From NCBI RefSeq assembly GCF_018687815.1, contig NZ_CP061306.1, positions 1,426,001 through 1,490,000 on the forward strand: a stretch of DNA of 64,000 nucleotides, written 5' to 3'. Under the pieces are notes generated by a model. That model saw nothing but the letters and a program-made list of their open reading frames with translations, ran no database searches and was not told where the DNA came from. Made by a program: the position numbers and the translations under genes. Below are positions 2,912 through 20,365 of the stretch, in pieces (position 1 is the stretch's first letter; every line of letters starts with the position of its first letter). This DNA comes from Polynucleobacter sp. JS-JIR-II-b4. GTDB taxonomy: Bacteria > Pseudomonadota > Gammaproteobacteria > Burkholderiales > Burkholderiaceae.

Positions 2912-2987
2912 GGGTCGGTAGCTCAGTCGGTAGAGCAGCGGACTTTTAATCCGTTGGTCGCGAGTTCGAATCTCGCCCGACCCACCA
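2912..2987 (+). tRNA. tRNA-Lys (UUU anticodon)
   Basis: This 76-base cloverleaf can be drawn by hand. The acceptor stem GGGTCGG (2912-2918) pairs with CCGACCC (2977-2983), with discriminator A and an encoded CCA (2985-2987). The D arm is GCTC/GAGC. The anticodon loop CTTTTAA is at 2943-2949 with anticodon TTT at 2945-2947. The T arm is GCGAG-TTCGAAT-CTCGC. It is the only intact copy here; two 3'-end fragments of the same gene lie at 19242 and 20315. The gene appears functional and keeps its own terminator, as expected when an integrating element restores the tRNA it targets. Confidence 0.97.
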
Positions 2988-2994
2988 GTTATAC
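2943..2994 (+). repeat. Direct repeat copy 1: 3' half of tRNA-Lys (attachment-site-like)
   Basis: These 52 bases run from the first base of the anticodon loop through the CCA end and seven bases beyond. They recur at 19242-19293 in the same orientation with a single mismatch (2982 C versus 19281 A). The anticodon loop is a known crossover site for tRNA-targeting tyrosine recombinases, so this is best read as one att site of the block between the repeats. Confidence 0.8.
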
Positions 2995-3024
2995 AAAAGC
3001 CACCTTCGGGTGGCTTTTTCTTTT
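2995..3024 (+). terminator. Intrinsic terminator of tRNA-Lys
   Basis: The stem AAAGCCACC/GGTGGCTTT closes on a TTCG tetraloop and is followed by a T-rich run (TTTTTCTTTT). Confidence 0.85.
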
Positions 3025-3053
3025 AGAGACGCAAGCAATCAAGAGCCCTTTTT

Positions 3054-3872
3054 TTAATACCCAAACGCTTTTCTGCTTTCATTGAGCATGAATAATGCAA
3101 CTAGAAAAAGAGTGCATCCAAAAATACGTTTTAATCTAGGCGCCTCTAATTTATTTACCACTCTTGCCCCGAGCGGTGCAGCAAGAATGCTCGTAATAAC
3201 AATGCACAATAAAGCGGGTACATACACATAGCCAAGAGAGTACTCAGGTAAAGATGAATTACCCCAACCTCCATAGATATAACCCAATGTAGATGATGCA
3301 GCGATTGGAAAACCTAAGCCCGAGGAATTTGCCATTGCATTATGGGGTTTGATATTGCACCAAATCATAAATGGGACCGTAATAAAAGCGCCGCCCGCAC
3401 CTAATAGACTAGCGATCACGCCCGTCAACACACCAAAAGCAAAGAGCCCAAAGGCTCCAGGTAAACCTCGTGCAGCATGAGGGGACCTATTCAGAATCAT
3501 TTGGGTGGATGAGTAAAGCATAAAAATGGAAAATCCTAGCGATAGCCAAGCTCCATTAATGACATCAAAAAATTTTCCGCCGCCAATTACAGCCCCCAAG
3601 ACAAGACCAGGAGATAAGGAAATAACTAGTTTCCAGTTAATATTGCGACGTTTCTGATGAGCTATTACGGCCGAGGAAGTAGTAAATAACACGCTAGCCA
3701 TACCTGTAGCAATTGCCATATGCATCAGAACATTTTCATTAAAGCCTAAACGGCCAAATATCAGAATCATTAGTGGAACTAAAATTACTCCACCCCCAAT
3801 TCCCAGTAGGCCAGCTAAAAATCCAGATAGGCTTCCACCTAGCATCAACCAAGCTATATCACCGATTGACAT
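3054..3872 (-). CDS. TSUP-family (TauE/SafE) membrane permease
   Basis: Inner-membrane protein of the TauE/SafE (TSUP) family, whose members move sulfite, sulfoacetate or other small organic anions. The 272 residues contain about eight hydrophobic segments in two repeats, each beginning with a glycine-rich motif (FLAGLLGIGGGVILVP at about 18 and LGAGGAFITVP at about 157) typical of the family. It is the last gene of the leftward operon that starts with the ABC ATPase at 7890; the amidase upstream ends 52 bases before its start. In this position it could export an acid released by the amidase, but no substrate can be read from the sequence. It ends 30 bases from the tRNA-Lys terminator. Confidence 0.85.
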   Translation of the reverse strand: MSIGDIAWLMLGGSLSGFLAGLLGIGGGVILVPLMILIFGRLGFNENVLMHMAIATGMASVLFTTSSAVIAHQKRRNINWKLVISLSPGLVLGAVIGGGKFFDVINGAWLSLGFSIFMLYSSTQMILNRSPHAARGLPGAFGLFAFGVLTGVIASLLGAGGAFITVPFMIWCNIKPHNAMANSSGLGFPIAASSTLGYIYGGWGNSSLPEYSLGYVYVPALLCIVITSILAAPLGARVVNKLEAPRLKRIFGCTLFLVALFMLNESRKAFGY

Positions 3873-3924
3873 GCCTCACCCCACAAAGAGTAACAAGAAC
3901 TTCAGAGGATGGGGCATGTAAAGA

Positions 3925-5226
3925 TTACTTCGCTAGAGCGGACTCAGAAAACTTAGCTACACTTAGTAACTTAGCATCACATCTATAGTTTCCAATAAGC
4001 TGAATGCCTAGTGGCAAACCATTCTTTGACTTACCAGCAGGAATCGTAATAGAAGGGGTTCCCAAAAAGCTCCAGAGGGCACAGAAGATTGGATCCCCAG
4101 TAGATGCCTGACTCTTAGGAGCCTCTCCACTTGCCGGGGCCATTAAAAATGCATCAAAGCTATCAAAGTAAGTGGCGATAGAATTACGTAGATTTTTTTG
4201 TAAGAACTTTGCGGCAACATAAGCAGGAGCGTTATGCTTTAGACCCCTTGTAACCAACCCTTGAATATGAACGCTAAGTGAATCATTCACATGCTCAGTA
4301 TGATGCGCATGTATTTCTGCAGCCTCTGACTCCAAAATAAGATTCATTGCTTGGATCGCGTCCCAGTACTCTTGGGGCAAAGATAACTTCTGAACGATAG
4401 CGCCTGATTCTTCGAGTTTCTGGACAGCTAAATTTAATGCCTGCTTCTGATCATCAGACATCATATGGTCCAGCGGTGTCTCTAGCAATGCAATCTTTGG
4501 CTTGTCCAGCATAGGCAACTCTTTTGTTGCGCCAAAGACCAAATCTGGAATAACGATTAATTCAGGATCAGATGAATCACTATTTTTTAAATTATTAAAA
4601 GCAAAAGCCATATCGTCAACCGACCGCGTGAAAAACCCAATATGGTCTAGCGAGTAGGACAAGGCGTGAGCACCAAGCTTAGAAACTGCACCGTAACTCG
4701 CCTTATAACCAACTACCCCACAATATGCTGCCGGCCTAATAATTGAGCCTTGCGTTTGCGATCCCAGCGCTAATGGCACTATCCCTGCGCCAACCGATGC
4801 CGCTGAACCACTAGAGGATCCTCCAGGGGTATATTCAGCATTAACTGGATTTGTTGTTGGGCCTGGATTACGCCAAGCAAACTCGGTCGTTACTGATTTA
4901 CCAAATATTACGCCGCCAAGACTGCGAATTTTTTTAACAATCGTAGCGTCTTCGGCGGGAGTCTTATCTTTATAAATGGGTGACCCATTAGTCGTTGGAA
5001 GATCAACAGTATTAATAATATCTTTAACGGCAATTGGAATTCCTGAGAGCGGGCCTGCCTTTATCTGCTTGGTCATAGAATCTAATGAGGCTCTTGAAAC
5101 AAAGGCCTTAAGAACGGGCTCCACTTCATTTGCCCTATCAAAACAGGCCCGCAAAAAATCTATAGGCTTTAATTCATCGGCAGAAATTAAGTTACAAGCC
5201 TCAGTCAGTCCAATTGTATTTTTCAT
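3925..5226 (-). CDS. Amidase-signature (AS) family amide hydrolase
   Basis: Cytoplasmic enzyme of the amidase-signature family, which hydrolyses carboxamides to acid and ammonia. The Ser-cisSer-Lys triad is present: K68 in AVKD, S137 in the glycine/serine-rich PGGSSSGSA box, and nucleophile S161 in GSQTQGS. The 433 residues match free-standing amidases, not GatA, because the core tRNA-amidotransferase genes would not sit among transporters. It is the fourth gene of a leftward operon (ATPase, permease, binding protein, amidase, TSUP), which points to hydrolysis of the imported solute. Substrate unknown. The second amidase of the island (8954-10132) is shorter and clearly divergent, so this is not a recent duplication. 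Confidence 0.9.
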   Translation of the reverse strand: MKNTIGLTEACNLISADELKPIDFLRACFDRANEVEPVLKAFVSRASLDSMTKQIKAGPLSGIPIAVKDIINTVDLPTTNGSPIYKDKTPAEDATIVKKIRSLGGVIFGKSVTTEFAWRNPGPTTNPVNAEYTPGGSSSGSAASVGAGIVPLALGSQTQGSIIRPAAYCGVVGYKASYGAVSKLGAHALSYSLDHIGFFTRSVDDMAFAFNNLKNSDSSDPELIVIPDLVFGATKELPMLDKPKIALLETPLDHMMSDDQKQALNLAVQKLEESGAIVQKLSLPQEYWDAIQAMNLILESEAAEIHAHHTEHVNDSLSVHIQGLVTRGLKHNAPAYVAAKFLQKNLRNSIATYFDSFDAFLMAPASGEAPKSQASTGDPIFCALWSFLGTPSITIPAGKSKNGLPLGIQLIGNYRCDAKLLSVAKFSESALAK

Positions 5227-5249
5227 ATGTTTTATTTATTCAAAGAAAT

Positions 5250-5269
5250 GGGGCGTAAAAATACGCCCC
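5250..5269 (-). terminator. Intergenic hairpin between binding-protein and amidase genes
   Basis: GGGGCGTA/TACGCCCC closes on a four-base loop between the stop of the binding-protein gene and the amidase start. No T run follows on the minus strand, so it may act as an mRNA-stabilising or attenuating stem that keeps the binding protein in excess over the enzyme. Confidence 0.5.
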
Positions 5270-5289
5270 AAGTGGATTAATAATAGCGA

Positions 5290-6261
5290 TTACTTCAATT
5301 TCAAAGCGTTTTGAATATAGGTTTCGTTAATAAAGTTTTCAAAGACAGGTTGCTCTTTTAAATTACCTAAAGCAATTTGTGTATCCATTGAAATTTTGAG
5401 TGCCGCAGGAGTGATTTGAACGCTCTTAGGGAATACGTTTTCACTCATCATGCGAGTTACCGCATTTTCAACAACTTGAGGATCAAGCGTTGGAAACTCT
5501 TTTTTGGCAACCTCAATAGCTCCCTTGGGATCTTTAGCCATATAACGAAGCGCAACCTCCATACCGTTCACCATTCTCTGAGCTGATACTGGATCAACCG
5601 TCTTCATTGCAGTAATGGATGAGAAAGCGTAAGCACCATAAGTTTTCGGGAAGCCTAAAACAACCTTCATTCCTTTGATCGCCACTTGATCAAGGCCCGG
5701 CTCGTACAGCACCGCAACCTTTGCCTGACCACCCAATAGCGCCGCAGGTTCTGTGCCCAGAGGAACCTGGATCATATCGATATCTTTATCACTCATGCCA
5801 TTTTCCTTAAGCAACTTAAGGAACAAAGAGGTGCTTGTCGTTGGCATTAAACCAGTAACAACTTTTTGGCCCTTGATGTCCTTAACATTCGTAAATTTCA
5901 CATCAGGAGCTGTTGCAATCCATACAGCAGCGCCGTTAACAGCATTACTAATAATGCCAACATTGGCGCCCTTAGAAGCGGCAATAGCAGTCCATTCTGG
6001 ACCATGAATTGAAAACTGCGAACTTCCTGAAAGTACCGAAGATAAAGCCGCGGTAGGAGATCCAGCGGTTTCTTTAATCACACTTAAGCCCTGGTCTTTA
6101 AAGAAGCCTTTATCAATTGCGACATAAAGGGGTAGATACAACATTGACTGAAATGCCTGAGAAATAGTGACTGTCTTTACTTCTGCGGTAGCGCTAAACG
6201 ACATGCCAGCAATAGCTAATGCAGCAACTGTTACTTGTAGCTTTTTGTAAATCGATTTCAT
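5290..6261 (-). CDS. Periplasmic substrate-binding protein, SsuA/THI5-like (ABC system 1)
   Basis: Solute receptor of an ABC importer of the nitrate/sulfonate/pyrimidine-precursor class. The start is set at 6261 because GGAGG stands seven bases before this ATG and a clean signal peptide (hydrophobic core, cleavage near SATAEV) follows; the frame remains open upstream without such signals. The mature part has the NMT1/SsuA layout, with ISQAFQSMLYLPLYVAIDKGFF near the N-terminus and the second-lobe block LGTEPAALLGGQ. About 323 residues, usual for the family. It follows the permease gene at 28 bases. The ligand cannot be assigned; alkanesulfonates, pyrimidines and other small N compounds all occur in this family. 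Confidence 0.88.
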   Translation of the reverse strand: MKSIYKKLQVTVAALAIAGMSFSATAEVKTVTISQAFQSMLYLPLYVAIDKGFFKDQGLSVIKETAGSPTAALSSVLSGSSQFSIHGPEWTAIAASKGANVGIISNAVNGAAVWIATAPDVKFTNVKDIKGQKVVTGLMPTTSTSLFLKLLKENGMSDKDIDMIQVPLGTEPAALLGGQAKVAVLYEPGLDQVAIKGMKVVLGFPKTYGAYAFSSITAMKTVDPVSAQRMVNGMEVALRYMAKDPKGAIEVAKKEFPTLDPQVVENAVTRMMSENVFPKSVQITPAALKISMDTQIALGNLKEQPVFENFINETYIQNALKLK

Positions 6262-6289
6262 GAAAAACCTCCGTGAGATTAATAAAAAA

Positions 6290-7105
6290 TTACATCCGAA
6301 TTTGTGTGCGTCCAGAATCATTGCGCCATGGGAACAAGAAGCGCTCCAGCGAATCAATGCCGTGATACAGAAAGAAACCAACAATCATCAACATGAATAA
6401 CCCAACCCAAACAGAATTGAGCTCATATAAGCTTGAGGCGTTGTAAATCATGTGTCCTAAACCAGCTTTTGATGAAATGAATTCACCCACAACTGCGCCA
6501 ACTAATCCAAAGCCTACATTGATGCGAAAGTTGGAAACAATCGCCGGCATTGAAGAAGGGACAACCACTTGACGAAATATTTGTTTGCGGTCAGCGCCCA
6601 TGGAATACAGCAATGATTGCAAATCCTTATCGGCTTCTTTAGTTGCCTGATGTGCTGCAATGAGAGCAATAATTGCTGTCATAGAGACAACCAATACGAC
6701 CTTAGCACCCAGACCTGTTCCAAACCAAAGCAAAATAATGGGAGCTAATGCAATTTTTGGAACGCTATTAATAGCAACAATGAATGGCTCCACAATCTGG
6801 GAAACCCATTTTGAGTACCAAAGGAGTAACCCAATACTAGTACCAACAAGCGTACCAATCACAAAGCCCAATAAAGCCTCCCAAAGCGTATACCCCGTAT
6901 CAATAAAGATGGAGTAATCCATCACGCTCGCAATGAATCTTTTCCATATCCCAAAAGGAGTTCCAACTAGAAATTCCGAGATGAATCCAAATTCCGCGAG
7001 GATTTGCCAAATAGCGAAAAAAATTACAACCGATAAAATCTGAATAAGTGACTTTCCAAAGCTTGTATCGAGCATTTGGCTCATTGTTTTCTTTTCGCGG
7101 CTCAT
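6290..7105 (-). CDS. ABC transporter permease, SsuC/TauC-like (ABC system 1)
   Basis: Inner-membrane channel subunit with a BPD_transp_1 domain. The 271 residues hold about six membrane segments, and the cytoplasmic EAA-type loop is visible as EADKDLQSLLYSMGADRKQIFRQVVVPS, split by a conserved glycine. The start overlaps the ATPase stop by four bases (ATGA), which argues for translational coupling. It works with the ATPase at 7102 and the binding protein at 5290. Confidence 0.92.
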   Translation of the reverse strand: MSREKKTMSQMLDTSFGKSLIQILSVVIFFAIWQILAEFGFISEFLVGTPFGIWKRFIASVMDYSIFIDTGYTLWEALLGFVIGTLVGTSIGLLLWYSKWVSQIVEPFIVAINSVPKIALAPIILLWFGTGLGAKVVLVVSMTAIIALIAAHQATKEADKDLQSLLYSMGADRKQIFRQVVVPSSMPAIVSNFRINVGFGLVGAVVGEFISSKAGLGHMIYNASSLYELNSVWVGLFMLMIVGFFLYHGIDSLERFLFPWRNDSGRTQIRM

Positions 7106-7890
7106 GCCAATTCATCCTTTCTGGTTTGAATATCCAATTCAGAGCAAAGTAGATGAAAATATTCACCAAAATTTTTGTGTGATCTAGCTTCGATTGGAGA
7201 TGAGCGCTCAATATCAATTTGATGCACATTTTTAACTACTGTAGGTCTACCGCTTAGCGCAACAACTCGCTTAGATAAGGCTACAGCCTCATCAATATCA
7301 TGGGTAACTAAGATGACCGTCTTTTTAAACTTTGCTACAGCATCAAGCAGAACACTCTCAAGGTAGAGTCTAGTTTGATAATCCAGGGCCGAAAATGGCT
7401 CATCAAGCAATAGGATGTCGGGATCCATTAAAAGAGTACGGATCAGTGCAACGCGCTGACGCATCCCCCCCGAAAGAGTCTGAGGGTAGGATTTTTCAAA
7501 ACCGGATAACCCAAAGGTGTTGAGGTAGTCCCTTGCCTTCTCAACCCCATTAGCATCATCCTCGCCCCGAACCCGCAATCCAAGCATGACATTCTCAAGA
7601 ACCGTGCGCCATGGGAACAGAAGGTCTTTTTGCATCATGTAACCAACCTTACCTCTGAGGCTTTGAATTTTGCTGCCTCTATAGATCATATTTCCGTTAT
7701 CAGCCTCGAGGAGCCCGGCAATGATATTAAAAATAGTTGACTTTCCACACCCACTCGGCCCAATGATGCTTAAAAAATCTTGCTCCATCACATCAAATGT
7801 AAGTCCATTAAGAACTGGAACTGGGCCATCTTTACTAGAAAATGACTTGCGTATTGAATCTAATGAAAGTTGCACTACAGGAATACTCAC
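7102..7890 (-). CDS. ABC transporter ATP-binding subunit, SsuB/TauB-like (ABC system 1)
   Basis: Cytoplasmic ATPase driving import through the permease at 6290. It has Walker A GPSGCGKST, signature LSGGMRQR, Walker B LLLDEPFSALD and the H-loop VTHDIDEA. I place the start at a GTG (7888-7890) with GGAG seven bases upstream. The frame is open to an ATG at 7980, but those 30 extra residues are not family-like and would cover the palindrome at 7962. It is the first gene of a five-gene leftward operon ending at the tRNA-Lys. The palindrome lies about 72 bases before this start, so regulation probably acts here. Confidence 0.9.
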   Translation of the reverse strand: MSIPVVQLSLDSIRKSFSSKDGPVPVLNGLTFDVMEQDFLSIIGPSGCGKSTIFNIIAGLLEADNGNMIYRGSKIQSLRGKVGYMMQKDLLFPWRTVLENVMLGLRVRGEDDANGVEKARDYLNTFGLSGFEKSYPQTLSGGMRQRVALIRTLLMDPDILLLDEPFSALDYQTRLYLESVLLDAVAKFKKTVILVTHDIDEAVALSKRVVALSGRPTVVKNVHQIDIERSSPIEARSHKNFGEYFHLLCSELDIQTRKDELA

Positions 7891-7961
7891 TATCAATCTC
7901 CATGAAATATTTTTATTGGGGTTGATACTTACATAAGCTCCCATCACTAGTGAATGTAGCT

Positions 7962-7976
7962 GCATTAATTTAGTGC
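7962..7976. promoter_or_regulatory. Operator-like palindrome upstream of ABC system 1
   Basis: GCATTAA-T-TTAGTGC is an inverted repeat with one mismatch and is nearly the same as GCACTAA-A-TTAGTGC at 19049-19063, upstream of the third transporter operon. Further AGTGC half-sites follow at 7992 and as GGTGCGCAC at 8012-8020. The occurrence of one rare palindrome before two island operons suggests a shared regulator, which is not encoded in the window. Confidence 0.55.
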
Positions 7977-8038
7977 GCAATCATCGATAAAAGTGCAGCA
8001 TTCATCAATGTGGTGCGCACTATCAGTACACTACTTAG

Positions 8039-8080
8039 TTCAAATAAAAAAACTACCCTTAGGTAGTTTTTTTATTTGAA
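8039..8080 (-). terminator. Strong bidirectional terminator
   Basis: A perfect 19-bp inverted repeat with a four-base loop (arms 8039-8057 and 8062-8080), with seven-base A and T runs inside the stem. It sits 11 bases beyond the stop of the hydrolase at 8091 and insulates the next operon from read-through. Confidence 0.85.
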
Positions 8081-8090
8081 TGATTAATAA

Positions 8091-8906
8091 TTAAATTAAA
8101 CGACTGACTAAAACTTTAAATATCTCTCCATTTTTATCCGTCAGTTCATCTAGTATTGTGTAGTGATTTTTTTCGGGGATGGTTTTAAAACTGCCCTCCG
8201 CCTCAGTTGAATTTCTATAGACAGAAAAATCAACCGACTGCCTTTGCATCTCTGGCAATTCAGAGCCACCTACAAAGATATCTAGGGGCTTGGAGGTATT
8301 TTGCTGAAGCAGAATTGGTGAATTCTTTAATGAAGTACCTTCATCCAGCGCTAGTTTTTCATTGATATAGCAATGTCTCATTGGCTCTAAATCGTAAATC
8401 CCACTAATTGCAGTGCCCCCTAGGACGCACTCTTCATCCTGAACCATTGATATGAGATGGGCACCCGCAGACCAGCCTATTAGCCATAGACCTTGAGGAA
8501 CCATCTGATTCTTATTCATGTAAACGCCAATTGCTTTTAGGCCATCTCTTACATCCCGAACAATTTCATGCATATTGGCATAGGGCGCCAAACGATACCC
8601 GAGCATTGCCACGCTAAAACCCGCCTGAACCAATGGAGGAGCAACGAAAGTAAAGTCATCCTTAGACCGCATCTGCCAGAACCCGCCATGCAAAAATACG
8701 ATAACGGGAGCATTGTCTCCCGCGGAGAAAAAATCGAAAGATTGAAATTTTGTATCCCCATAAGAAATATCACAATCCCCAGGTAGTTTTTCCTTGGCCG
8801 AGATACTAGACTGAACCCATGACCGCACGATCTCTGCGCTATTAGCAACGGCTAAAGAATTGTTGTAAGCCTTATCTAAATTCTCTTTGGAAAAATTTTT
8901 CCACAT
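8091..8906 (-). CDS. Alpha/beta hydrolase, kynurenine-formamidase-like
   Basis: Cytoplasmic serine hydrolase of the alpha/beta fold. The oxyanion-hole motif HGGFW (about residue 73), nucleophile elbow GWSAG (about 145) and a late histidine in KNHYTI are visible. HGG(F/Y)W is typical of arylformamidases (kynurenine formamidase) and related small-molecule esterases. At 271 residues it fits that group. It is transcribed away from the amidase at 8954, with 47 bp between the starts, so both may share a regulatory region. No tryptophan-degradation genes lie nearby, which argues against a housekeeping role in kynurenine metabolism and for an amide or ester substrate tied to the island transporters. 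Confidence 0.8.
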   Translation of the reverse strand: MWKNFSKENLDKAYNNSLAVANSAEIVRSWVQSSISAKEKLPGDCDISYGDTKFQSFDFFSAGDNAPVIVFLHGGFWQMRSKDDFTFVAPPLVQAGFSVAMLGYRLAPYANMHEIVRDVRDGLKAIGVYMNKNQMVPQGLWLIGWSAGAHLISMVQDEECVLGGTAISGIYDLEPMRHCYINEKLALDEGTSLKNSPILLQQNTSKPLDIFVGGSELPEMQRQSVDFSVYRNSTEAEGSFKTIPEKNHYTILDELTDKNGEIFKVLVSRLI

Positions 8907-8953
8907 GCCCTACACTCCTAAGATAAATTCAATCACTTACTTATTGGTCCATT

Positions 8954-10132
8954 ATGCCCACAATTTTTGAACGCGATACAGCCCGAGCCTTTTGTGTAGA
9001 TGCTCCGATAGAGATACTCTCGACAAAATCAGGCCCGCTAAAAGATTTAACCTTTGGGGTAAAGGATATTTTTGACATCGCTAATATACCAACAGCATTT
9101 GGGAGTCCTGCCTGGCTGAACTCCCATCCCATTCCTACTGAGACGGCTACATTTATCTCAAGCCTTGTAGATGCTGGCGCGTCATTAGTTGGGAAGACTC
9201 ATACTGACGAACTAACCTATAGCATTCTAGGAATGAATGCGCATTACGGTACACCCTTAAATACTGCCGCCCCCAACAGAGTTCCAGGAGGATCTTCTAG
9301 CGGATCAGCATCTGCAGTTGCTGCTAAGCTAGTTGACTTTGCTATAGGCTCAGATACTGGGGGTTCTGTTAGAGCTCCGGCTAGCTTCTGCGGTATATAT
9401 GGTTTCCGCCCTACACATGGGCGTATTAGCCTTGAGAGAGCTCGTCCACTAGCAAAAAGTTTCGATACTTTAGGTTGGTTTGCACGAGATCCAGAAATCC
9501 TCTTAAAGGTGGGAGAAGTTCTTTTTAATGAAACTCGGGCAAGAAACGCCAGCGCATCCTACTTTTTCTTAAAAGAGGCATTTAACTTATTACCCCCCAG
9601 CCTTAGCAAACAGGCGCAAGAAGCTATCTCACTCCGACTGGGAAGAGCTCAAATTCCTACGGTTGAGATCGGCAACTGCGAGCTCAAAGATTGGGCAGAG
9701 ACATTTAGAATTATTCAAGCTGGAGAAATCTGGGAACAGCATGGTAATTGGGCATCCGAACATCTCAGCGAGATGGGGCCTGGAGTAAAAGATCGCTTTG
9801 AGGCTGCGCGCTCCATCACTGAGGATCAAAAAATTAAAGCTCGCTCTGACCGAGAAAAAGTCACTACCAAGATGGCTCAACTGCTTTCTGAAAATACTTA
9901 TCTAATACTTCCCACCGTTTTTGATATAGCGCCACGCTTGGACTCAAGCGCAAAAGAATTTGATGACTTTAGAAAAAATAGTTTTCAATTACTTTGTATC
10001 GCTGGCCTATGCGGCCTCCCACAAGTAACACTGCCCTTGCTTACCATTCAAGATGCACCATTTGGGGTATCCATCCTAGCCAAGCAAAATATGGACATGT
10101 CACTTTTAGGTGAAATCTATGCACCAACATGA
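8954..10132 (+). CDS. Amidase-signature family hydrolase (second island amidase)
   Basis: AS-family amide hydrolase with triad K37 (GVKDIF), S114 (PGGSSSGSA) and S138 (GSDTGGS). The GSDTGGSVRAPA form resembles AtzF/indoleacetamide-hydrolase-type enzymes more than the first island amidase, which has GSQTQGS. At 392 residues it is short because the region before the catalytic lysine is trimmed to about 36 residues and the C-terminus is compact. It is followed after 67 bases by the genes of ABC system 2. The likely role is hydrolysis of the solute imported by that system. Substrate unknown. Confidence 0.88.
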   Translation: MPTIFERDTARAFCVDAPIEILSTKSGPLKDLTFGVKDIFDIANIPTAFGSPAWLNSHPIPTETATFISSLVDAGASLVGKTHTDELTYSILGMNAHYGTPLNTAAPNRVPGGSSSGSASAVAAKLVDFAIGSDTGGSVRAPASFCGIYGFRPTHGRISLERARPLAKSFDTLGWFARDPEILLKVGEVLFNETRARNASASYFFLKEAFNLLPPSLSKQAQEAISLRLGRAQIPTVEIGNCELKDWAETFRIIQAGEIWEQHGNWASEHLSEMGPGVKDRFEAARSITEDQKIKARSDREKVTTKMAQLLSENTYLILPTVFDIAPRLDSSAKEFDDFRKNSFQLLCIAGLCGLPQVTLPLLTIQDAPFGVSILAKQNMDMSLLGEIYAPT

Positions 10133-10199
10133 AGAATAGTAATCGTTAATACCTATAAGATAGCCTTAGGATGCATACATTACTTAAAGGAATGGATGC

Positions 10200-11195: not shown

Positions 11196-11197
11196 TA

Positions 11198-11971: not shown

Positions 11972-12738
11972 GCCAAAACCCGCCACGCACGCACGTCACT
12001 ATTCGGAACTTATGCAAAGAGTTTGGCGGCGCGACTCTTTACAAAGACTTTAACTTTGAAATTCCGTATGGAAAGATTATTTCTATATTTGGGCCAAATG
12101 GTTGCGGAAAATCTACTCTTATTAATATGATCGCAGGGCTAATGCCCTATGACTCTGGTCAGGTCTTGTTTGATGGAAAAGATTTAAAAGATACTAAGAT
12201 TGGGTATGTCTTTCAAAACTACAGAGACGCTCTATTTCCATGGATGAGCTCCCGCGACAACATAGCCTATCCGCTAAGGCGCACTGGAATGAGCGAGGCT
12301 AAAGTAACTGCTCGCGTCAAGGAATTGGTTCAGCTATTTGAAATACGATTCAATCTGGATCTATACCCTTATGAGCTTTCTGGTGGACAACAGCAAACCA
12401 TATCAATTATGCGAGCCTTAGCACCTAAGCCAGAGATACTCTTCCTAGATGAGCCATTCTCAGCCTTAGACTTTGAAATGACACTCTTCATCAGAGAAAA
12501 GCTGCAAGAGGCGAACATTACCACTGGTACAACAATGATGATCGTCTCTCATGATCTTGAAGATGCGGTCTTTCTAGCCGATGAGATTCTCCTTCTCACA
12601 AGAAGACCAACGGCGATTGCCTCTCTTTTATATTTTGATATGCCAAAACCACGCTTGCCTGAAGCAGTAAGCCATCCTGAGTTCATTCAGATCAAGTCAA
12701 AAGCCCTTGAAATCTTTCAAGCAGAAATGCGAAAATAA
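11968..12738 (+). CDS. ABC transporter ATP-binding subunit (ABC system 2)
   Basis: Cytoplasmic ATPase of the SsuB/TauB/ThiZ group: Walker A GPNGCGKST, Q-loop VFQNYRDALFPW, signature LSGGQQQT, Walker B LFLDEPFSALD, H-loop VSHDLEDA. The arginine that usually ends the signature (LSGGQQQR) is replaced by threonine. Its start overlaps the permease stop by four bases, indicating coupled translation. It is followed after five bases by the lipocalin-like gene. Confidence 0.92.
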   Translation: MSQNPPRTHVTIRNLCKEFGGATLYKDFNFEIPYGKIISIFGPNGCGKSTLINMIAGLMPYDSGQVLFDGKDLKDTKIGYVFQNYRDALFPWMSSRDNIAYPLRRTGMSEAKVTARVKELVQLFEIRFNLDLYPYELSGGQQQTISIMRALAPKPEILFLDEPFSALDFEMTLFIREKLQEANITTGTTMMIVSHDLEDAVFLADEILLLTRRPTAIASLLYFDMPKPRLPEAVSHPEFIQIKSKALEIFQAEMRK

Positions 12739-12743
12739 GCCTC

Positions 12744-13169
12744 ATGAAAAGCAATCAAGCACTTATAGGAATATGGAAATTATTTTCCTACGAAGTAGAA
12801 ATACAAGAAACGGGCGAGTTTTTTTATCCCCTAGGACAGAAACCAACTGGATTCATCTGCATCACTGAAAATAACCATGTCATGGTGACATTAACTGGTG
12901 AGGGTCGAAAGCCAGCCTCAAGCAGCGAAGATAGCGCGGAATTATTAAACAGCCTAGTATCCTACGCAGGCACCTACCGCATAGAAGGTAATGAATGGAT
13001 CACGAGCGTTCAGGTTGCCTGGAAGCCTGATTGGGTGAATACAGAGCAAAGACGTCAATTTGAAATTCAAGATGACCGCCTTCGCGTTTTGACTACTTGG
13101 CGCATCATGCCCAATTGGGCAGATAAAGGTCTACAGCGCAGTATCTTAACCTTTGTTAAAACAGATTAA
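12744..13169 (+). CDS. Lipocalin-like domain protein
   Basis: A 141-residue cytoplasmic protein resembling the lipocalin-like family (PF13924 type): the opening LIGIWKLFSYEVE, then QKPTGFICIT, YAGTYRIEGN and a C-terminal strand-rich part. No signal peptide is present. It is the last gene of the ABC system 2 operon, five bases behind the ATPase. Members sit beside catabolic genes in many soil and freshwater bacteria, but no reaction is established. It might bind a hydrophobic intermediate; this is inference. It ends four bases inside the convergent transporter gene at 13166. Confidence 0.7.
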   Translation: MKSNQALIGIWKLFSYEVEIQETGEFFYPLGQKPTGFICITENNHVMVTLTGEGRKPASSSEDSAELLNSLVSYAGTYRIEGNEWITSVQVAWKPDWVNTEQRRQFEIQDDRLRVLTTWRIMPNWADKGLQRSILTFVKTD

Positions 13170-15601
13170 CCCTCTCCCAAGTACTCGCTAATCATTTCCT
13201 CTGATTGCAGTAGATCTACTGCATTACCTTCTAGGGTAATTTTTCCAGAAGAAAATACGTATCCACGGTCAGCAATCTGCAATACGGTTTTCGCGAATTG
13301 ATCTACCACCATCAGCCCCGTACCCTCACCTGCAATTTTTTGGATTGCCTGATAAACCTCAGCCACCAGCTTAGGGGCAAGACCTAAAGACGGCTCATCC
13401 AATAGGAGTAGGTCTGGTGCTGACATCATCGCCCTTCCAAACGCCAGCATTTGCTGTTCGCCTCCAGAAAGAGTTCCAGCGGGCTGGTTAAAACGCTCTC
13501 GCAAGCGCGGGAAAAGCGTCAGCATATCTTCAATTCTTTGCTTTCGAATAGAAGCAGATTTTGTATAACCGCCCAGCAATAAATTTTCCCCAACCGTTAG
13601 CTCTGGAAATACCTGTCTACCCTCTGGTACAAGCGCTAATCCAAGGGATACCCGTTGATGCCCAGGGATGCTGGATATATCCCTGCCCTTAAATCGAATA
13701 CTTCCCCTGCTTGGGATCAAGCCCGACAATGCCTTCATTAAAGTGGATTTACCCGCTCCGTTTGCGCCGAGCAAGGCTAAGGTCTCATGATTTTTTGCAA
13801 CGAGGTTAATATCTTTTAAAACAGATAAATTTCCATAGCCGGCTGATAAATTACTAATCTCCAATATCGCTTGTGGATCTATGTTGCTAGCCTTAGGAAA
13901 AACATGAAGCTTCGCCACCCCAAGATAGGCCTCGATTACTTGAGGCATCTCACGCACTTGCTCAGGCGCACCCTGCGCAATAACTTGGCCACTATCCAAC
14001 ACTACTATTTCATCGCAAGTGCCCATGACAAGCCTGACATCATGCTCCACAAGTAATACCCTAATACCTAGACCAGCAAGATGGCCAAGCAATTGACTCA
14101 AATCGTCTTTTTCTTTTGCAGACAAACCAGCGGCTGGCTCGTCTAATAAGATGAGGTCTGGATTACAAGCTAGCGCACGAGCAATCTCAACTAAACGGCG
14201 ATCAACAAACGCCAACTCACTCGCATAGCAGTTTAACTCTTGCTTATATCCAACTAAATTGAGTAATTCATAAATAATGGAGTCATGATCAACTCCTTTT
14301 GGCAGGGCTATATATAAATTTTCATAGACTGTAAGTGAGCCAAATAATTGAGTCGCCTGAAATGTTCTTGCAATACCAAGGCCAGCCTGTTGATAAGTTG
14401 GATGTGACGATAAATTTTCATTCAAGCGACTCACATGACCACTTCCAGCTTGATAAAAACCACTAATTAAGTTCAGTAACGTGGTCTTTCCGGCACCATT
14501 TGGACCAATCAGGCCAACGATTTTTCCAGGCTCGATTGAAAAACTGACATCGCTAACGGCTTTTACTCCACCAAAACGAATAGAAAGATCTTCTATCTTT
14601 AATAAGCCATTTCGGAGGCCTGCTTTAAGCCATTGATCAATATTGCCATTTCCAATTGGTTTCTTCGGGTTTTTAGTGCCCGCTTTCGCCTCATAAAGAG
14701 AAGCAATTCCATTTGGGCGGATCCAAAGAATTAAAACTAACAATATTCCGAAGACTAGGATTCGATACTCCGCCAATCCCGACAAGACTTCCGGTAGGCC
14801 CGCAATAATGATGGCCCCAATAACTGGTCCAGTTAGAGTTCCCACTCCACCTAAGATGGTGAGTAGAAGAAATAAGATGGATTGGAATAAATTAAAATTT
14901 TCAGGGCTAATAAACCCTACCATTGGAGCAAAAAGCGCTCCAGCTAATCCAGTAATTCCAGCAGAAATTGCAAAAGCTAAACTACGAATTTGAACTGGAT
15001 TTATCCCAATAGCGATCGCAGCTGCTTCAGCATCACTGGATGCCTTAAGTGATTTGCTAAATCGTGATTTAGTTAGGAGTAAATAAGCAAAACCGGTTAA
15101 CACTGCTATTAGGATAATTAACCCAACATGCCAGCGGATATCAAATACAAATCCAAAAAGGCTGGGCTTATCGATATCCGAGATACCGTTAAACCCTCCG
15201 GTAATTGGCTCCGCTTCAATAATGATATTTTCTAATATCAGCCCAAATGCAATAGTCACCATTGCTAGATACGGACCCTTGACTCGTAATGCAGGCGCAG
15301 CCAAAATCAAACCCAGCACAAATGCCATCAACACGCCTACAGGCAAAGTCTGCCAAAAACTAAATCCATATTTAGTAGTGAGGATGGCTTCGGTATATGC
15401 CCCAATCGCAAAAAAGGCAGCGTGACCTATTGATATCTGTCCTGCAATACCAATCAGCAAGGCTAAGCCATAGCCAACCATTGAAAAAATACCTGCCATA
15501 CCTAATATATAGAGCCAATATGTATTCGGAGAAAAAATAACTCCGAATATGCCCAATAAAATGAAGAGGGTAGCCGCTACTGCTGTTGAATTGATCCTCA
15601 T
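13166..15601 (-). CDS. Fused branched-chain-type ABC subunit: permease + two ATPases (LivM-LivG-LivF)
   Basis: A single 811-residue frame joins three subunits normally encoded separately. Residues 1-303 are a LivM-type permease (many membrane segments, GIAGQISIGHAAFFAIGAY). Residues 334-570 are a LivG-type ATPase (Walker A GPNGAGKTT at 366-374, LLDEPAAGLS). Residues 579-811 are a LivF-type ATPase (Walker A GANGAGKST at 612-620, signature LSGGEQQ at 711-717, LLLLDEPSLGLAP). In the first ATPase the signature region reads SELAFVDRR, without the usual YGQQ, so that site may be weak. The gene overlaps livH by four bases. Two-part LivMG fusions are familiar; the three-part form is less so. The system takes up amino acids, amides, urea or aromatic acids in relatives. 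Confidence 0.9.
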   Translation of the reverse strand: MRINSTAVAATLFILLGIFGVIFSPNTYWLYILGMAGIFSMVGYGLALLIGIAGQISIGHAAFFAIGAYTEAILTTKYGFSFWQTLPVGVLMAFVLGLILAAPALRVKGPYLAMVTIAFGLILENIIIEAEPITGGFNGISDIDKPSLFGFVFDIRWHVGLIILIAVLTGFAYLLLTKSRFSKSLKASSDAEAAAIAIGINPVQIRSLAFAISAGITGLAGALFAPMVGFISPENFNLFQSILFLLLTILGGVGTLTGPVIGAIIIAGLPEVLSGLAEYRILVFGILLVLILWIRPNGIASLYEAKAGTKNPKKPIGNGNIDQWLKAGLRNGLLKIEDLSIRFGGVKAVSDVSFSIEPGKIVGLIGPNGAGKTTLLNLISGFYQAGSGHVSRLNENLSSHPTYQQAGLGIARTFQATQLFGSLTVYENLYIALPKGVDHDSIIYELLNLVGYKQELNCYASELAFVDRRLVEIARALACNPDLILLDEPAAGLSAKEKDDLSQLLGHLAGLGIRVLLVEHDVRLVMGTCDEIVVLDSGQVIAQGAPEQVREMPQVIEAYLGVAKLHVFPKASNIDPQAILEISNLSAGYGNLSVLKDINLVAKNHETLALLGANGAGKSTLMKALSGLIPSRGSIRFKGRDISSIPGHQRVSLGLALVPEGRQVFPELTVGENLLLGGYTKSASIRKQRIEDMLTLFPRLRERFNQPAGTLSGGEQQMLAFGRAMMSAPDLLLLDEPSLGLAPKLVAEVYQAIQKIAGEGTGLMVVDQFAKTVLQIADRGYVFSSGKITLEGNAVDLLQSEEMISEYLGEG

Positions 15602-16470
15602 ACTTTATAAACCCCTTTTTTTCCAAAGAGGCCATTTGGTTTGAAGATCAGAATAATGATAAGTAAGCCAAAACCTAGAATTTCTCTAAATGCAGAAGGC
15701 AACTGGGCAGCAATAATGGACTCAAAGACGCCATAGCCAATTCCAGCCACTAGACAACCTGGGGCACTCAATATCCCACCAATAATTGCAGCAGCGAATG
15801 CCTTTAAACCAATGAGAGTACCCATGCTTGCAGAGACATTTAATTTTGGTGCAATTAACATCCCTGCCAGACCTGCCAGCGCCGTTGAAACTACGTACGC
15901 CAAAATAATTAATTTTTTAACGTTAATACCCTGAAGGATTGCGGCATCTCGGTTTTGAGCTGCCGCTAGTAATGCTCTACCAACAATGGTTTTTTTAGAT
16001 AATAGCCACAGAATTATTGCAACACTGATTCCCACTGCGGGAATAATGAACTCAATAGGATAAATTCCAGCATTGAATAAACGAATAGGCTCAGAAATAG
16101 ACGGCATAGGAATACTTCTAGGCTCCTGACCGAAAGTGAAGCGAACGATGTTTTCTAAAATAATTCCAAACGCAATCGTAGACAGCAGCCAGGAAACAGA
16201 ATTATTTTGACAAAAAGGCCGAACGAAGAAACGCTCAACGATTATTCCGAGCAGCCCAGACATCAGCAGAACCAGCGGAACGGCAATTAAGATGTCAATG
16301 CCTAGACGTGTATGCACTTCATAAAACATGACTGCGCCAAACATGAGTGTGGCACCAAGAGAAAAATTAACGGTATTTGAAACTACAAAGGTGATGTGAT
16401 ACCCAAGTGCTAGTAGTCCGTAAATACTCCCCGTTGCTAAGCCTGCAATTAATACATCTAAAGAAATCAT
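15598..16470 (-). CDS. Branched-chain-type ABC permease, LivH-like (ABC system 3)
   Basis: Inner-membrane permease of the LivH/UrtB group with 290 residues and about eight hydrophobic segments. Family blocks include GLATGSIYGLLALGYHI at the N-terminus and the domain motif AAAQNRDAAILQGINVKK. It forms the heteromeric channel with the permease part of the 811-residue fusion, whose start overlaps its stop by four bases. The receptor gene lies 31 bases upstream. It belongs to the leftward operon from the amidohydrolase at 18939. Confidence 0.92.
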   Translation of the reverse strand: MISLDVLIAGLATGSIYGLLALGYHITFVVSNTVNFSLGATLMFGAVMFYEVHTRLGIDILIAVPLVLLMSGLLGIIVERFFVRPFCQNNSVSWLLSTIAFGIILENIVRFTFGQEPRSIPMPSISEPIRLFNAGIYPIEFIIPAVGISVAIILWLLSKKTIVGRALLAAAQNRDAAILQGINVKKLIILAYVVSTALAGLAGMLIAPKLNVSASMGTLIGLKAFAAAIIGGILSAPGCLVAGIGYGVFESIIAAQLPSAFREILGFGLLIIILIFKPNGLFGKKGVYKV

Positions 16471-16501
16471 AATTTAAGGATAGTAACGGGGGGTAAAGAA
16501 A

Positions 16502-17671
16502 TTAATTGACCGGTACTGCAACGTTACCTACAAAATGAACCCATATGTAGTCACGATCTGTGAGCGCATCTTGGCTTTCAGCTGAGAAAGGCTTCTTATA
16601 AGTCTTGATGAGCCCCTTGTACTCAGGGATTTCATAAAATGCCTCGCGAATTTTTTCACCGTTAGTTGATCCAGCTTTATTAATAGCTAAAGCTGTCAAC
16701 ATAGTCGCATCATATGCATTAGCCGTACCTACCGGCGCTACGATATCATTAACTCCCTTAATCTCAGGATAGCGCTTTTTCAACTCAGCAATCACTTTTT
16801 CGCCAACCGGACTTTGCTTGCCAAAGAAGCTGTAAGTCTGAACGAAAACAACGTCTTTGTAGCGAGGGCCCGCTAATTCATCAAAACGGCCACCCGAGAT
16901 GCCCCAATGTGAAACTACTGGAACATTCCAATTCATGCGCTCTAAAGATTTCATTACTTGCGCAGCTACTCCAGTATTGCCAACCAAAATGATAGAGTCA
17001 GCACCGGCATTTTTAAGGCGCGTCAGCTGAGCAGTAGTATCAATATCATTAGTATTGTATTTTTCTTGGCCCGCAAGCGTAATATTTAAGGCGGCAGCGG
17101 CCTTTTCTAAGCCCTTCATATTTGAATCGCCCCATGGGTTATTCACCAACATAGATCCAGGATGCTTTGACTTGAATTTATCTTGTGCATATTTAAGCAT
17201 TCCATAATCTACACGCTCATCAACTGCCGATACCCTAAACATATAGTTAGGATTTTTATTGTTGTTAGTGATGCCTGTGCCTGCTGCCCATACGCCCATA
17301 TATGGAGTTTTTAATTCAGACATCACGTTAATTAAGGACATAGATACTGGTGTATCGATTCCACCAAACACTACAGCAACCTTCTCCTTCTCAATCAACT
17401 CCCTTGCGGCTAATTGGCCTTTGGCTGGATTTGATTCGTCATCACGTCTTACCAATACTAATTTCTTACCACCCAGTACGCCGCCTTTTGCATTAATTTC
17501 ATCAATCGCCACCGTCATTCCTCGGGTAATGGATTCTCCAGATAATGCGGAGTCTCCAGATAAGGCGGCTACAAGGCCGATTTTGACTTGCTCTTGCGCA
17601 CTAACAGGAGCTGATAGAAACATCAAAGGAAGAAGCAAAGATCCTAAATATTGAGTTGGAGTGAGTTTCAT
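16502..17671 (-). CDS. Substrate-binding protein, LivK/Leu-Ile-Val-type (ABC system 3)
   Basis: Periplasmic receptor of the Peripla_BP_6 family: signal peptide (core LGSLLLPLMFLSAPVSA, cut before QEQVK), then KIGLVAALSGDSALSGE and the hinge-side block ARELIEKEKVAVVFGG. The 389 residues match LivK-like proteins for amides, urea or aromatic acids. It follows the amidohydrolase after 32 bases and precedes livH, so the operon order is enzyme, receptor, permease, fused permease-ATPases. Substrate identity cannot be read, but the enzyme next door suggests a cyclic amide or aminopyrimidine-like compound. Confidence 0.9.
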   Translation of the reverse strand: MKLTPTQYLGSLLLPLMFLSAPVSAQEQVKIGLVAALSGDSALSGESITRGMTVAIDEINAKGGVLGGKKLVLVRRDDESNPAKGQLAARELIEKEKVAVVFGGIDTPVSMSLINVMSELKTPYMGVWAAGTGITNNNKNPNYMFRVSAVDERVDYGMLKYAQDKFKSKHPGSMLVNNPWGDSNMKGLEKAAAALNITLAGQEKYNTNDIDTTAQLTRLKNAGADSIILVGNTGVAAQVMKSLERMNWNVPVVSHWGISGGRFDELAGPRYKDVVFVQTYSFFGKQSPVGEKVIAELKKRYPEIKGVNDIVAPVGTANAYDATMLTALAINKAGSTNGEKIREAFYEIPEYKGLIKTYKKPFSAESQDALTDRDYIWVHFVGNVAVPVN

Positions 17672-17703
17672 GTATTTACCTTTTAAGCAAAAGTGAAGTT
17701 AAG

Positions 17704-18939
17704 TTAAATGTGATGTGGATGATGAATTTCTACTGCATTTCTTGTAAAACTACGTCGTCCATTCTTAAGTCCGAACAAAGGGATGGCTAACTCAGCAATG
17801 GCTTGCGAAGAAGATGTGCAATCGAGCACTACTAAATTTGCTGGATGATTTACTTCAATACCGTAGTTAGAAAGACGCATTAGTTGAGCGGACCTCGTAG
17901 TCACCATATCTAGGCAGTCGTGGAAATTTGGCTCGCTGACATGGGCAATATTTGCATATAGATTCGCCATTCGAATTAATGAGCAATCCCCAAAAGGGGT
18001 AAAGGGATTTAGGACGTTATTCGTAGAAAGACTGCAATTGACTCCATGTTCTAACATTTCATGGACACGGACCACACCTCGATTATGGTTACACGTATGG
18101 TCTCGCCCCATCAAGTAAAGATCAGTTGAAGGCAATACAGTTACCGCCACCCCAGAATCAGAAAGCATTCCAATGACTTCACCCAAGTGCTCAGATGGGA
18201 GATAGGTCAGCTTGGTTACATGCCCAATAGCTACGCGTCCGCCATAGTTAAATTCTTTAGTTTTTTGACATACGTATTCAACGTCTAAATAGTCAGCGTT
18301 ATTTCCAAAATCTAGATGCATGTCGATATCCGCATCGAAATCCTTAGCAATCCGGAATACACGATCGATTTGCTCTTTTGAATCTGCGTCCGTATAGGGT
18401 GCGGCACCTACTACTCTAGCGCCCATTTTCATAGACTCAACCATTAGTTCTTCAGTGCCAAGATTATTAGTCAACCCTTCTTGCGGGAATACGCACACCT
18501 CAACATCAATAGCCCATTTATATTTTTCAATGGCAGCAAACACACCCTCAAGTCCCCGTAGACCAATAACCGGATCAACTTCAACATGGGTACGCATATG
18601 CATCGTACCGTGTGAAATCGATTTCTCTAGAGTCTTGCAAGCACGCTCGAAGACATCATCCTGAGTAAACAACTTCTTTTGAAGTGCAACCTGGCTTATA
18701 GCCTCTTCAATAGTTCCTTTAGAGCTATGACAGCGTGACAATATGCATGACTTATCAAGATGAATATGGGATTCACAGAATGGCGGGATAACTAAGCGCC
18801 CACCCAAATCCAGAATTTCATGGGCTTCGGAAAGGCTCTTTTCAATAGCAACAATCATTCCTTGGTTGATGCCGATATCTACCGTCTCTGTACGCCCGTT
18901 AATTCGAGCATTTTTTAATATTAATTCCATGGCATTCAT
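17704..18939 (-). CDS. Cytosine-deaminase-like amidohydrolase
   Basis: Metal-dependent amidohydrolase of the cytosine deaminase/AtzC branch, which deaminates or hydrolyses ring amines and cyclic amides in the cytoplasm. Metal ligands are visible as HIHLD (about 58-62), a histidine in RTHVEVD, GHVTKL and an aspartate in PSTDLYL; the C-terminal strand NPANLVVLD-like (HPANLVVLD) is family-typical. The 411 residues fit. A second ATG at 18930 gives a start nearer the family norm; neither has a clear ribosome binding site. It opens the ABC system 3 operon and lies about 110 bases downstream of the palindrome at 19049. Cytosine itself seems unlikely given a LivK-type importer. Confidence 0.82.
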   Translation of the reverse strand: MNAMELILKNARINGRTETVDIGINQGMIVAIEKSLSEAHEILDLGGRLVIPPFCESHIHLDKSCILSRCHSSKGTIEEAISQVALQKKLFTQDDVFERACKTLEKSISHGTMHMRTHVEVDPVIGLRGLEGVFAAIEKYKWAIDVEVCVFPQEGLTNNLGTEELMVESMKMGARVVGAAPYTDADSKEQIDRVFRIAKDFDADIDMHLDFGNNADYLDVEYVCQKTKEFNYGGRVAIGHVTKLTYLPSEHLGEVIGMLSDSGVAVTVLPSTDLYLMGRDHTCNHNRGVVRVHEMLEHGVNCSLSTNNVLNPFTPFGDCSLIRMANLYANIAHVSEPNFHDCLDMVTTRSAQLMRLSNYGIEVNHPANLVVLDCTSSSQAIAELAIPLFGLKNGRRSFTRNAVEIHHPHHI

Positions 18940-19048
18940 TAAGTTGAGGCTGAAAACGAAAGTTCACTACAAGCGGAAGAACCGTCAGATTAAGAAATCC
19001 GCGTGGAATTAAATTTAGACCCAAGGAAGAGGTCGAAGATTAGTCATT

Positions 19049-19063
19049 GCACTAAATTAGTGC
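19049..19063. promoter_or_regulatory. Operator-like palindrome upstream of ABC system 3
   Basis: GCACTAA-A-TTAGTGC has perfect 7-base arms around one central base and sits about 110 bases before the amidohydrolase start. It matches the site at 7962-7976 at 13 of 15 positions. A lone AGTGCAG follows 26 bases after the palindrome here and 16 bases after it at 7976, a difference close to one helical turn. Confidence 0.55.
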
Positions 19064-19241
19064 GAATAAATTTTGATAGCCTTTAAATAGTGCAGTGGCA
19101 GCACCGAATTGACTTAATTCAAGAAAAATTAGCAAGATGTAGATTTAAAGAAACCATCTATTAATCGCACATTCAATCGCACGCTCATTTTTTGGTCGGA
19201 TAGGCTATTGATTTATGTGGGGTTTTGAAGACCCGCGACTT

Positions 19242-19293
19242 CTTTTAATCCGTTGGTCGCGAGTTCGAATCTCGCCCGACACACCAGTTATAC
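19242..19293 (+). repeat. Direct repeat copy 2: tRNA-Lys 3' fragment (distal att-like site)
   Basis: This copy matches 2943-2994 at 51 of 52 positions. The bases just before it (ACCCGCGACTT) only loosely resemble the tRNA anticodon stem, and the 5' half of the tRNA is absent, so it cannot make a tRNA. It marks the right edge of the island. Confidence 0.8.
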
Positions 19294-19294
19294 G

Positions 19295-19787: not shown

Positions 19788-19800
19788 TTAACATCCTTTA

Positions 19801-20364: not shown

Positions 20365-20365
20365 T

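Follow-up and report, generated by a model that had tools for sequence, protein, structure and literature searches.

How does a block of transport and hydrolase genes come to lie directly behind a transfer RNA gene, and what might it do for the cell that carries it? The question arises at the tRNA-Lys(TTT) locus of Polynucleobacter sp. JS-JIR-II-b4 (2.02-Mb genome), in a window of 64 kb (the whole stretch analysed, G000:C1:1426001-1490000; coordinates are those of the window, and G and L numbers are our handles for genomes and loci). An earlier note, made from the sequence alone, had seen a 16-kb island here and proposed a transferable package for organic-nitrogen scavenging. We consider it likely (probability of about 0.8) that the island is a unit of an additive array anchored at tRNA-Lys, moved in trans and serving NtrC-switched nitrogen scavenging; it is best filed as a tRNA-anchored additive island, or integrase-less cis-mobilizable unit.

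The island runs from an intact tRNA gene to a direct copy of that gene's 3' part. The two copies agree at 53/55 bases (96%), equal to the 51/52 over the repeat length first quoted in the earlier note, whose further statement that the repeats begin exactly at the anticodon loop was borne out (with the anticodon at tRNA position 34, the repeat start at 2943 is the loop's first base). A third, decayed copy (73% identical) lies past infA and a cold-shock gene (csp), which form the next segment. Searching the genome with its own tRNA region returned, besides the gene itself, four matches: tRNA-Asn and tRNA-Phe genes elsewhere (E = 8.4e-12 and 2.8e-8, respectively) and the second and third copies (E = 5.8e-20 and 2.2e-6, respectively). 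The E value of the second copy is thus far better than those of the other tRNA genes; the third copy is recognisable mainly through its location. The repeat behaves as an attachment-site (att) copy. Tandem intact tRNA-Lys copies, which would have spoken against integration, were absent: the window holds one tRNA gene, and the other copies are 3'-half fragments. In composition the island differs modestly from its flanks, both in G+C (42.8%, against 45.5-46.4% in three flanking stretches; infA-csp segment, 39.5%) and in codon usage (inside/outside divergence of 0.0186; 200 splits of 22 flanking genes averaged 0.0086 and never exceeded 0.0145).

An empty tRNA-Lys site, predicted by the earlier note, was found in G105, where the tRNA side joins straight to the right flank: the equivalents of 2250-2997 and 19242-20370 are contiguous and share one att copy. 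In G031 and G039, infA is likewise the first gene past tRNA-Lys. Elsewhere the gap between tRNA-Lys and infA-csp holds a VbhA/zeta-toxin pair (G041), small open reading frames (ORFs) and a HAD hydrolase (G067), two TctC-type binding proteins with a DHDPS-family protein (G097), or about 13 kb with an integrase at its start (G064). How far tRNA-Lys lies from the gene at 25248-26444 also varies (e.g., G082, 3.4 kb; G113, 92 kb). Genome comparison shows insertion at tRNA-Lys.

The cargo is patchily distributed. The first amidase of the island (3925-5226) has a match at E ≤ 1e-120 in 52/186 Polynucleobacter genomes and one of at least 87% identity in seven (G000, G006, G015, G103, G142, G073 and G046). 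The deaminase-like amidohydrolase occurs in three of the 186 (G000; G080, 95%; G103, 94%), so the case in which all relatives share these genes in place does not apply. G103 carries the island with its gene order unchanged (86.7% identity across 15.9 kb); an att copy closes it on the right, and genes like those of the window follow further downstream. The left end of the island is cut by a contig end, and tRNA-Lys lies on another contig, followed by an integrase fragment. Because the contig end separates island and tRNA-Lys, we can only infer that it occupies the same array. In G006, window positions 3054-13433 are matched at 94.5% identity (10.4 kb, ending inside the liv fusion) behind a 90% tRNA-Lys-type att copy about 0.66 Mb from that genome's tRNA-Lys. 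The tRNA flank of G006 is 85% identical to that of the window, and the greater likeness of the cargo indicates recent transfer. Ancestral genes lost in nearly all relatives would find some support in G015, G073 and G046, whose 5-kb copies of the left part of the island have diverged about as much as the core (82-85% identity to the window copy, with tRNA flanks at 83-84%). Such loss is nevertheless very improbable, given a deaminase-like gene in 3/186 genomes, a G006 cargo more alike than its flank, and copies at different chromosomal sites.

Beyond the window, 3' flanks of tRNA-Lys were read in 88 of the 185 genomes with a match, mostly over about 20 kb each. This set is not random: it comprises the window genome, relatives mainly from the top of the tRNA-flank match list, and nine genomes added for an integrase near tRNA-Lys (G084, G002, G130, G016, G068, G110, G045, G043 and G129), with two stretches left out (G114, wrong side; G095, too short). 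Further att copies were found in 58/88 genomes (121 in total, none inverted, 32 at 100% over ≥40 bp), or in 54/79 genomes (116 copies) when the nine integrase-selected genomes are excluded; arrays are under-counted, since most of the stretches read stop at about 20 kb and 11 do not reach 19 kb. When 70 copies from across the genus (each ≥90% over 40 bp or more) were compared with the tRNA-Lys of their own genomes, identity rose abruptly from 17% to 89% where the anticodon loop begins and dropped from 97% to 54% past the CCA end; given these sharp edges, the att site was set at 45 bp. A genome-wide scan with 36 site bases (≤3 mismatches) matched 171/186 genomes, the tRNA itself included, and a reversed control pattern had no match in the 186. 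Outside the genus, a one-pattern scan (≤3 mismatches) matched 18/150 family genomes, 15 of them Polynucleobacter and three others with one copy each, a weak result for array spread because the tRNA-Lys of other genera may differ too much.

Segments between copies measure 0.2-48 kb, 62 of the 121 being shorter than 2.2 kb. Twelve segment clusters recur in at least two genomes: a small-protein pair without a name (seven genomes), Fic (six), infA-csp (six, the window genome among them), a lipoprotein-like gene (five; assigned by reading the sequence), zeta toxin, AbiEii with a helix-turn-helix (HTH) gene and a 1.5-kb DUF2252 segment (four each), and five pairs. Nine clusters sit in different slots, and three, all of them pairs, in the same slot. 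infA itself is present in the stretches read of 10/88 genomes, in slots 1 to 6. Toxin-antitoxin-type content (Pfam, NCBIfam) was seen in Fic, VbhA/zeta, AbiEii/HTH, HigB/HTH, HI1419/HI1420 and DUF433/DUF5615 segments, and such genes occur in at least 17/62 small segments (extending a representative's hit to its cluster; the DUF5615 hit lies below cut-off). In many pairs segment identity departs from that of the core. Some segments are far more alike than the core of their carriers (Fic in G090/G184, 98.5% against 79.8%; AbiEii in G087/G089, 96.3% against 78.2%), and the small-protein pair varies in this respect (G067/G075, 99.5% against 90.9%; G067/G104, 86.5% against 93.3%). The window island has the features of an additive unit, with att at both ends and no detected integrase or conjugation gene, and stands in tandem with the infA-csp segment and third att copy; tandem units are also indicated by the extra copies in the 58 genomes.

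Which enzyme could have moved such units? Integrases were sought with a profile built from the G080 integrase and six others chosen for sitting beside tRNA-Lys, and the profile consequently favours the tRNA-Lys-adjacent kind. Integrase-like ORFs were found in 18/88 stretches. Nine full-length frames on the tRNA strand open 7-202 bp past the first base of an att copy, seven at the tRNA (G064, G185, G046, G084, G002, G130, G016) and two at an inner copy (G043, G113); five of these nine genomes had been fetched for that reason, and six served as profile seeds. Shorter integrases occupy the same position in G103 (113 aa) and G146 (323 aa, weak). Nine integrases that were aligned share invariant Arg, Lys, SLRH and HY, with Tyr at the usual box-II His, a pattern and residue roles that we take to be typical of tyrosine recombinases. 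Three integrases tested match PHROG integrase families, and Pfam gave nothing at E ≤ 0.001 for those of G064 and G080; the G064 protein, a recombinase encoded beside tRNA-Lys (L068:813-2201), has a PHROG integrase hit and none in NCBIfam either. As relatives also sit at many other places in genus genomes, the family as a whole is not tied to tRNA-Lys. In eight genomes (G043, G045, G092, G109, G063, G068, G110 and, broken, G035), minus-strand integrases lie 7.9-13.4 kb away from the closest att copy that was read. The frames of G109, G063, G068 and broken G035 start 10.0-10.1 kb behind an att copy, a spacing that suggests a fixed-size element of another type.

The earlier note had remarked that no integrase is left in the island, and neither this profile nor Pfam/NCBIfam searches of the island ORFs found one; an autonomous mobile element was accordingly rejected for the window copy. 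A plasmid or phage origin was also considered, and megablast of the island against 72,556 plasmid and 50,697 phage records matched none of them, a search that distant relatives would escape. The island might still be a decayed autonomous integrative element that lost its own integrase beside tRNA-Lys after insertion. Full-length integrases directly behind tRNA-Lys in other genomes speak for this, as does the 113-aa fragment behind tRNA-Lys in G103, which has the same island on another contig. It is possible but appears clearly the less probable course, since no integrase remnant was detected in the window island, and integrase-like genes occur in only 8/121 segments and in 0/62 of those under 2.2 kb (other recombinase families would escape the profile), which makes integrase-free units the rule. 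For a unit without a detected integrase, in a genome without a match to the two integrases tested, movement in trans is most likely. A tyrosine recombinase specific for the tRNA-Lys 3' half would insert a DNA circle at the tRNA, so that the tRNA gene is restored and the far end carries a direct copy; newer insertions would displace older units outward, and the unit itself would be mobilised by an integrase-bearing element sharing the same site.

The island is itself probably composite, with a 5-kb unit (tauE-like gene, amidase and ABC importer) and an 11-kb unit (hydrolase, amidase, ABC importer, liv-type importer and amidohydrolase) apparently fused by decay of the site between them. Aligned to att plus terminator, the junction scored 43 in G103 (best of 300 shuffles, 28) and 30 in the window (best of 300 shuffles, 28, with the hairpin driving the score); a control stretch (19297-19406) scored 21, attained by 15/300 shuffles. 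Each part also occurs alone. G080 has 8115-19111 only (85.6%), in a tRNA-Met-associated region between an exonuclease-domain gene and an integrase, in keeping with the earlier suggestion to seek the block at other tRNA genes with an integrase. Its borders are att positions 27-45 on one side and 1-22 on the other, complementary halves that would fit a circle re-inserted via the middle of the site. The exact attB was sought, but in G101 the exonuclease-like gene and the integrase are separated by different sequence, and no empty site was definable. The G080 region also has genes read as metal-resistance genes, and its integrase (448 aa) has relatives at 95-98% identity in many genus genomes. The 5-kb part without the 11-kb part was found in G015, G073 (minus tauE), G046 and G142: between two direct tRNA-Met 3'-half copies in G142 (100% and 96%) and G073 (95% and 87%), and 3' of an intact tRNA-Met in G015 and G046. 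Direct tRNA-Met(CAT) 3'-half copies at L216-L219, L086, L087 and L134 suggest a second array. The transferability proposed in the earlier note is thus supported by the empty site, the patchy cargo, the block at other sites and the composition shift.

At the tRNA-Met sites the module has the opposite orientation to the tRNA from that in the window, so cargo and border are not permanently joined. Occurrence with tRNA-Met repeats and in this orientation implies some movement other than via the tRNA-Lys site, as expected if homologous recombination between flanking or shared sequence replaced whole islands and the short repeats were relics. For the window island this is improbable: sharp 45-bp edges, the empty site of G105 and an all-direct set of extra copies (121/121) fit site-specific recombination. 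A joint reading, doubtful at present, would make the whole a tRNA-anchored analogue of an integron, that is, a genus-wide integrase-free cassette array served by outside recombinases, shuffled between species, and re-addressable to a tRNA-Met array bordered by the tRNA-Met 3' half. Its cassettes would range from single toxin-antitoxin pairs to 16-kb nutrient packages.

What the cargo may do is indicated by its genes (Table 1) and promoters. Domain searches bore out the three ABC importers, each with an amidase or deaminase-like enzyme, described earlier from the sequence, and each importer is adjoined by a hydrolase gene. Importer and enzyme form a conserved set, since the same genes adjoin in two metagenome-assembled genomes (L036 and L038, outside the genus by title), with livK, livH, the liv fusion, amidohydrolase and the second amidase consecutive, and at four Pseudomonas loci with liv genes and amidohydrolase. 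The genome encodes NtrC (over the curated cut-off), and TGCAYYN5RRTGCR, which we take to be the NtrC consensus, occurs at 10 places in it, two of them 5' of the island's minus-strand operons. The consensus gains support from a site 198 bp upstream of glutamine synthetase (glnA), which is followed by a PAS/histidine-kinase gene and ntrC, and from one at the start of an ammonium-transporter gene. The island boxes are kept in 10/10 module copies tested, with differing centres. An ntrC gene and an upstream palindrome are thus present for two of three operon promoters, which supports the idea of organic-nitrogen scavenging. These two operons are probably activated by NtrC under nitrogen limitation, and imported amides or N-heterocycles would be hydrolysed to ammonia; our confidence that such compounds are taken up and hydrolysed under nitrogen control is moderate.

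Table 1. Features of the tRNA-Lys locus, in window coordinates
Feature	Position	Strand	Basis
tRNA-Lys(TTT), intact target, island left end	2912-2987	+	ARAGORN; Rfam tRNA 79.2 bits
Left attachment copy (3' half of the tRNA, anticodon loop onward, + 10 bp)	2943-2997	+	repeat comparison
Hairpin + T-run, terminator-like, 3' of tRNA-Lys	3001-3024	+	read in sequence; inverted partner 19408-19440
TauE/SafE-family permease	3054-3872	-	PF01925 1.2e-48
Amidase, nearest solved structure malonamidase E2	3925-5226	-	PF01425 1.6e-78; 1ock 9.6e-66
NMT1/SsuA-type solute-binding protein	5290-6384	-	PF09084 8e-23
ABC permease	6290-7105	-	PF00528 2e-28
ABC ATPase	7102-7980	-	PF00005 2.9e-32
NtrC-type palindrome 5' of first minus-strand operon	7961-7977		pattern search; site in 7/7 module copies
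Module junction, hairpin + possible decayed att remnant	7981-8090		local alignment vs shuffles
Alpha/beta hydrolase (BD-FAE / hormone-sensitive-lipase-like)	8091-8906	-	PF20434 2e-12; HaHSL_fam 1.3e-43, below cut-off
Amidase, PRK08310 family	8954-10132	+	above curated cut-off
NMT1/SsuA-type solute-binding protein	10200-11195	+	Pfam
ABC permease	11198-11971	+	Pfam
ABC ATPase	11968-12738	+	Pfam
Lipocalin-like protein	12744-13169	+	PF13924 7.1e-29
LivM-LivG-LivF-like fusion (permease + two ATPases)	13166-15601	-	PF02653, two PF00005 stretches
LivH-like permease	15598-16470	-	PF02653 4.1e-40
LivK-type binding protein	16502-17671	-	PF13458 1.5e-53
Cytosine-deaminase-like amidohydrolase, Asn replacing the family's beta-8 Asp	17704-18939	-	domain + residue comparison
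NtrC-type palindrome 5' of amidohydrolase/liv operon	19048-19064		pattern search; 3/3 copies, centre differs
Right attachment copy	19242-19296	+	repeat comparison
infA (19527-19787) + cold-shock gene (19873-20076), array's next segment	19527-20076	-	PF01176; PF00313 3.4e-28
Third attachment copy, decayed, past infA-csp	20309-20363	+	repeat comparison

Several observations weigh against the account of a trans-moved, NtrC-switched array unit. No extra att copy was present in the stretch read of 30/88 genomes; some shared segments, zeta among them, show no greater identity than the core, and part of the sharing is thus explained by vertical descent; and the tRNA-Met borders and inversion are not explained by a simple circle with a fixed att. 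The window genome had no match to two integrase queries, and present mobility of the window copy is, on that sequence result, not supported. Regarding nitrogen control, of the remaining six of the 10 genomic sites four fall within long ORFs and two adjoin no evident nitrogen gene. The box is short, the window count equals chance (2 against a mean of 1.87), and the case for NtrC rests on site position and conservation, not on that count. The divergent promoter at 8906/8954 (third operon) has no NtrC-type box, and no clear sigma-54 promoter site was seen by eye in the printed flanks. Lastly, the amidohydrolase lacks the catalytic residues of cytosine deaminase. Of the residue set of that enzyme (HxH, beta-5/beta-6 His, catalytic Glu and beta-8 Asp, with metal-binding and catalytic roles as we presume them), the His residues are retained, but another residue replaces the Glu and Asn replaces the Asp, both in the window protein and in 27/27 homologues (L036-L062, proteobacterial going by record titles), and cytosine deaminase proper was rejected for this gene. 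The DDVFDP-type motif of the Escherichia coli enzyme reads NNVLNP or similar in this family. Among the 27 loci encoding a relative of an island protein, the closest is from Polynucleobacter sp. AP-Latsch-80-C2 (94%).

Gene assignments differ from the earlier reading in a few places. The supposed organic-anion permease is a TauE/SafE-type permease, and the lipocalin-like gene was missing from the first gene list. The "formamidase-like hydrolase" is indeed a hydrolase, but of the solved structures "Lipase 1" is the nearest (1.1e-35), and kynurenine formamidase matches less well (1.6e-11). LivM, LivG and LivF are fused in a single 811-aa frame, and the matching stretch is stop-free in 6/6 loci checked outside the genus (L036, L038, L058-L060 and L062). 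The TTG start listed for the first binding-protein ORF is probably too far upstream (it overlaps its neighbour, and the homologous match in G103/G015 is shorter). The listed start of the first ATPase ORF overlaps the NtrC-type box, and the true start probably lies downstream of the box at 7961.

Chromosomal integron arrays are rows of small units, many of them toxin-antitoxin, that recur in different order. The Polynucleobacter units resemble them in being small, often of toxin-antitoxin type and recurrent in varied order, but differ in that the site is a tRNA 3' half and not attC (the repeated site is the 45-bp tRNA-Lys 3' half; no attC model was run), in being anchored at a tRNA and in reaching tens of kilobases. 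Two precedents place the array within a known kind. In Dehalococcoides, as described in the portion of the source consulted (PMC3146451), islands lie in tandem behind the single ssrA gene, each bounded by a direct 3'-end copy; an integration module is present in 16 and missing from 15, and those without one are suggested to be cis-mobilizable and moved by accretion. Tandem units behind one RNA gene, direct 3'-end copies and a frequently missing integration module are common to both systems, whereas Dehalococcoides has an ssrA target, a serine recombinase and reductive dehalogenase cargo, and Polynucleobacter has tRNA-Lys, tyrosine-recombinase-like integrases and many small toxin-antitoxin-type segments. 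The second precedent, in the corresponding portion of PMC10872708, is fGI-2 of the freshwater planktonic methylophilacean 'Ca. Methylopumilus', with tRNA-Lys 3'-end repeats varying in number and a size of 330 bp to 42 kb. Its target is tRNA-Lys(CTT) with 20-nt repeats, against TTT and 45 bp here, and that portion mentions no cassettes that recur and no modules in common with a second tRNA hotspot. Tycheposons, as presented there, are likewise tRNA-anchored cargo of streamlined plankton, some with nitrogen genes, and Islander-type tRNA/tmRNA islands (PMC4383910, in part) similarly have a regenerated target gene at one end and a displaced fragment at the other. Both involve site-specific tyrosine recombinases or integrases, and none was detected in the window island. 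In the literature searched, which covered few subscription journals, we found no Polynucleobacter tRNA-Lys array, no report of cassette-sized toxin-antitoxin units recurring across Polynucleobacter species, and no single cargo module bordered by the 3' halves of two different tRNAs.

Streamlined freshwater bacteria are thought to adapt through exchange of flexible islands. The locus described here reveals the unit of such swaps and its border at base resolution in many species, with most array units lacking a detectable integrase, and it ties a mobile package testably to a nitrogen-control regulator. The roughly 120 segments form a natural collection for asking what holds arrays together, for which toxin-antitoxin cassettes are an obvious candidate.

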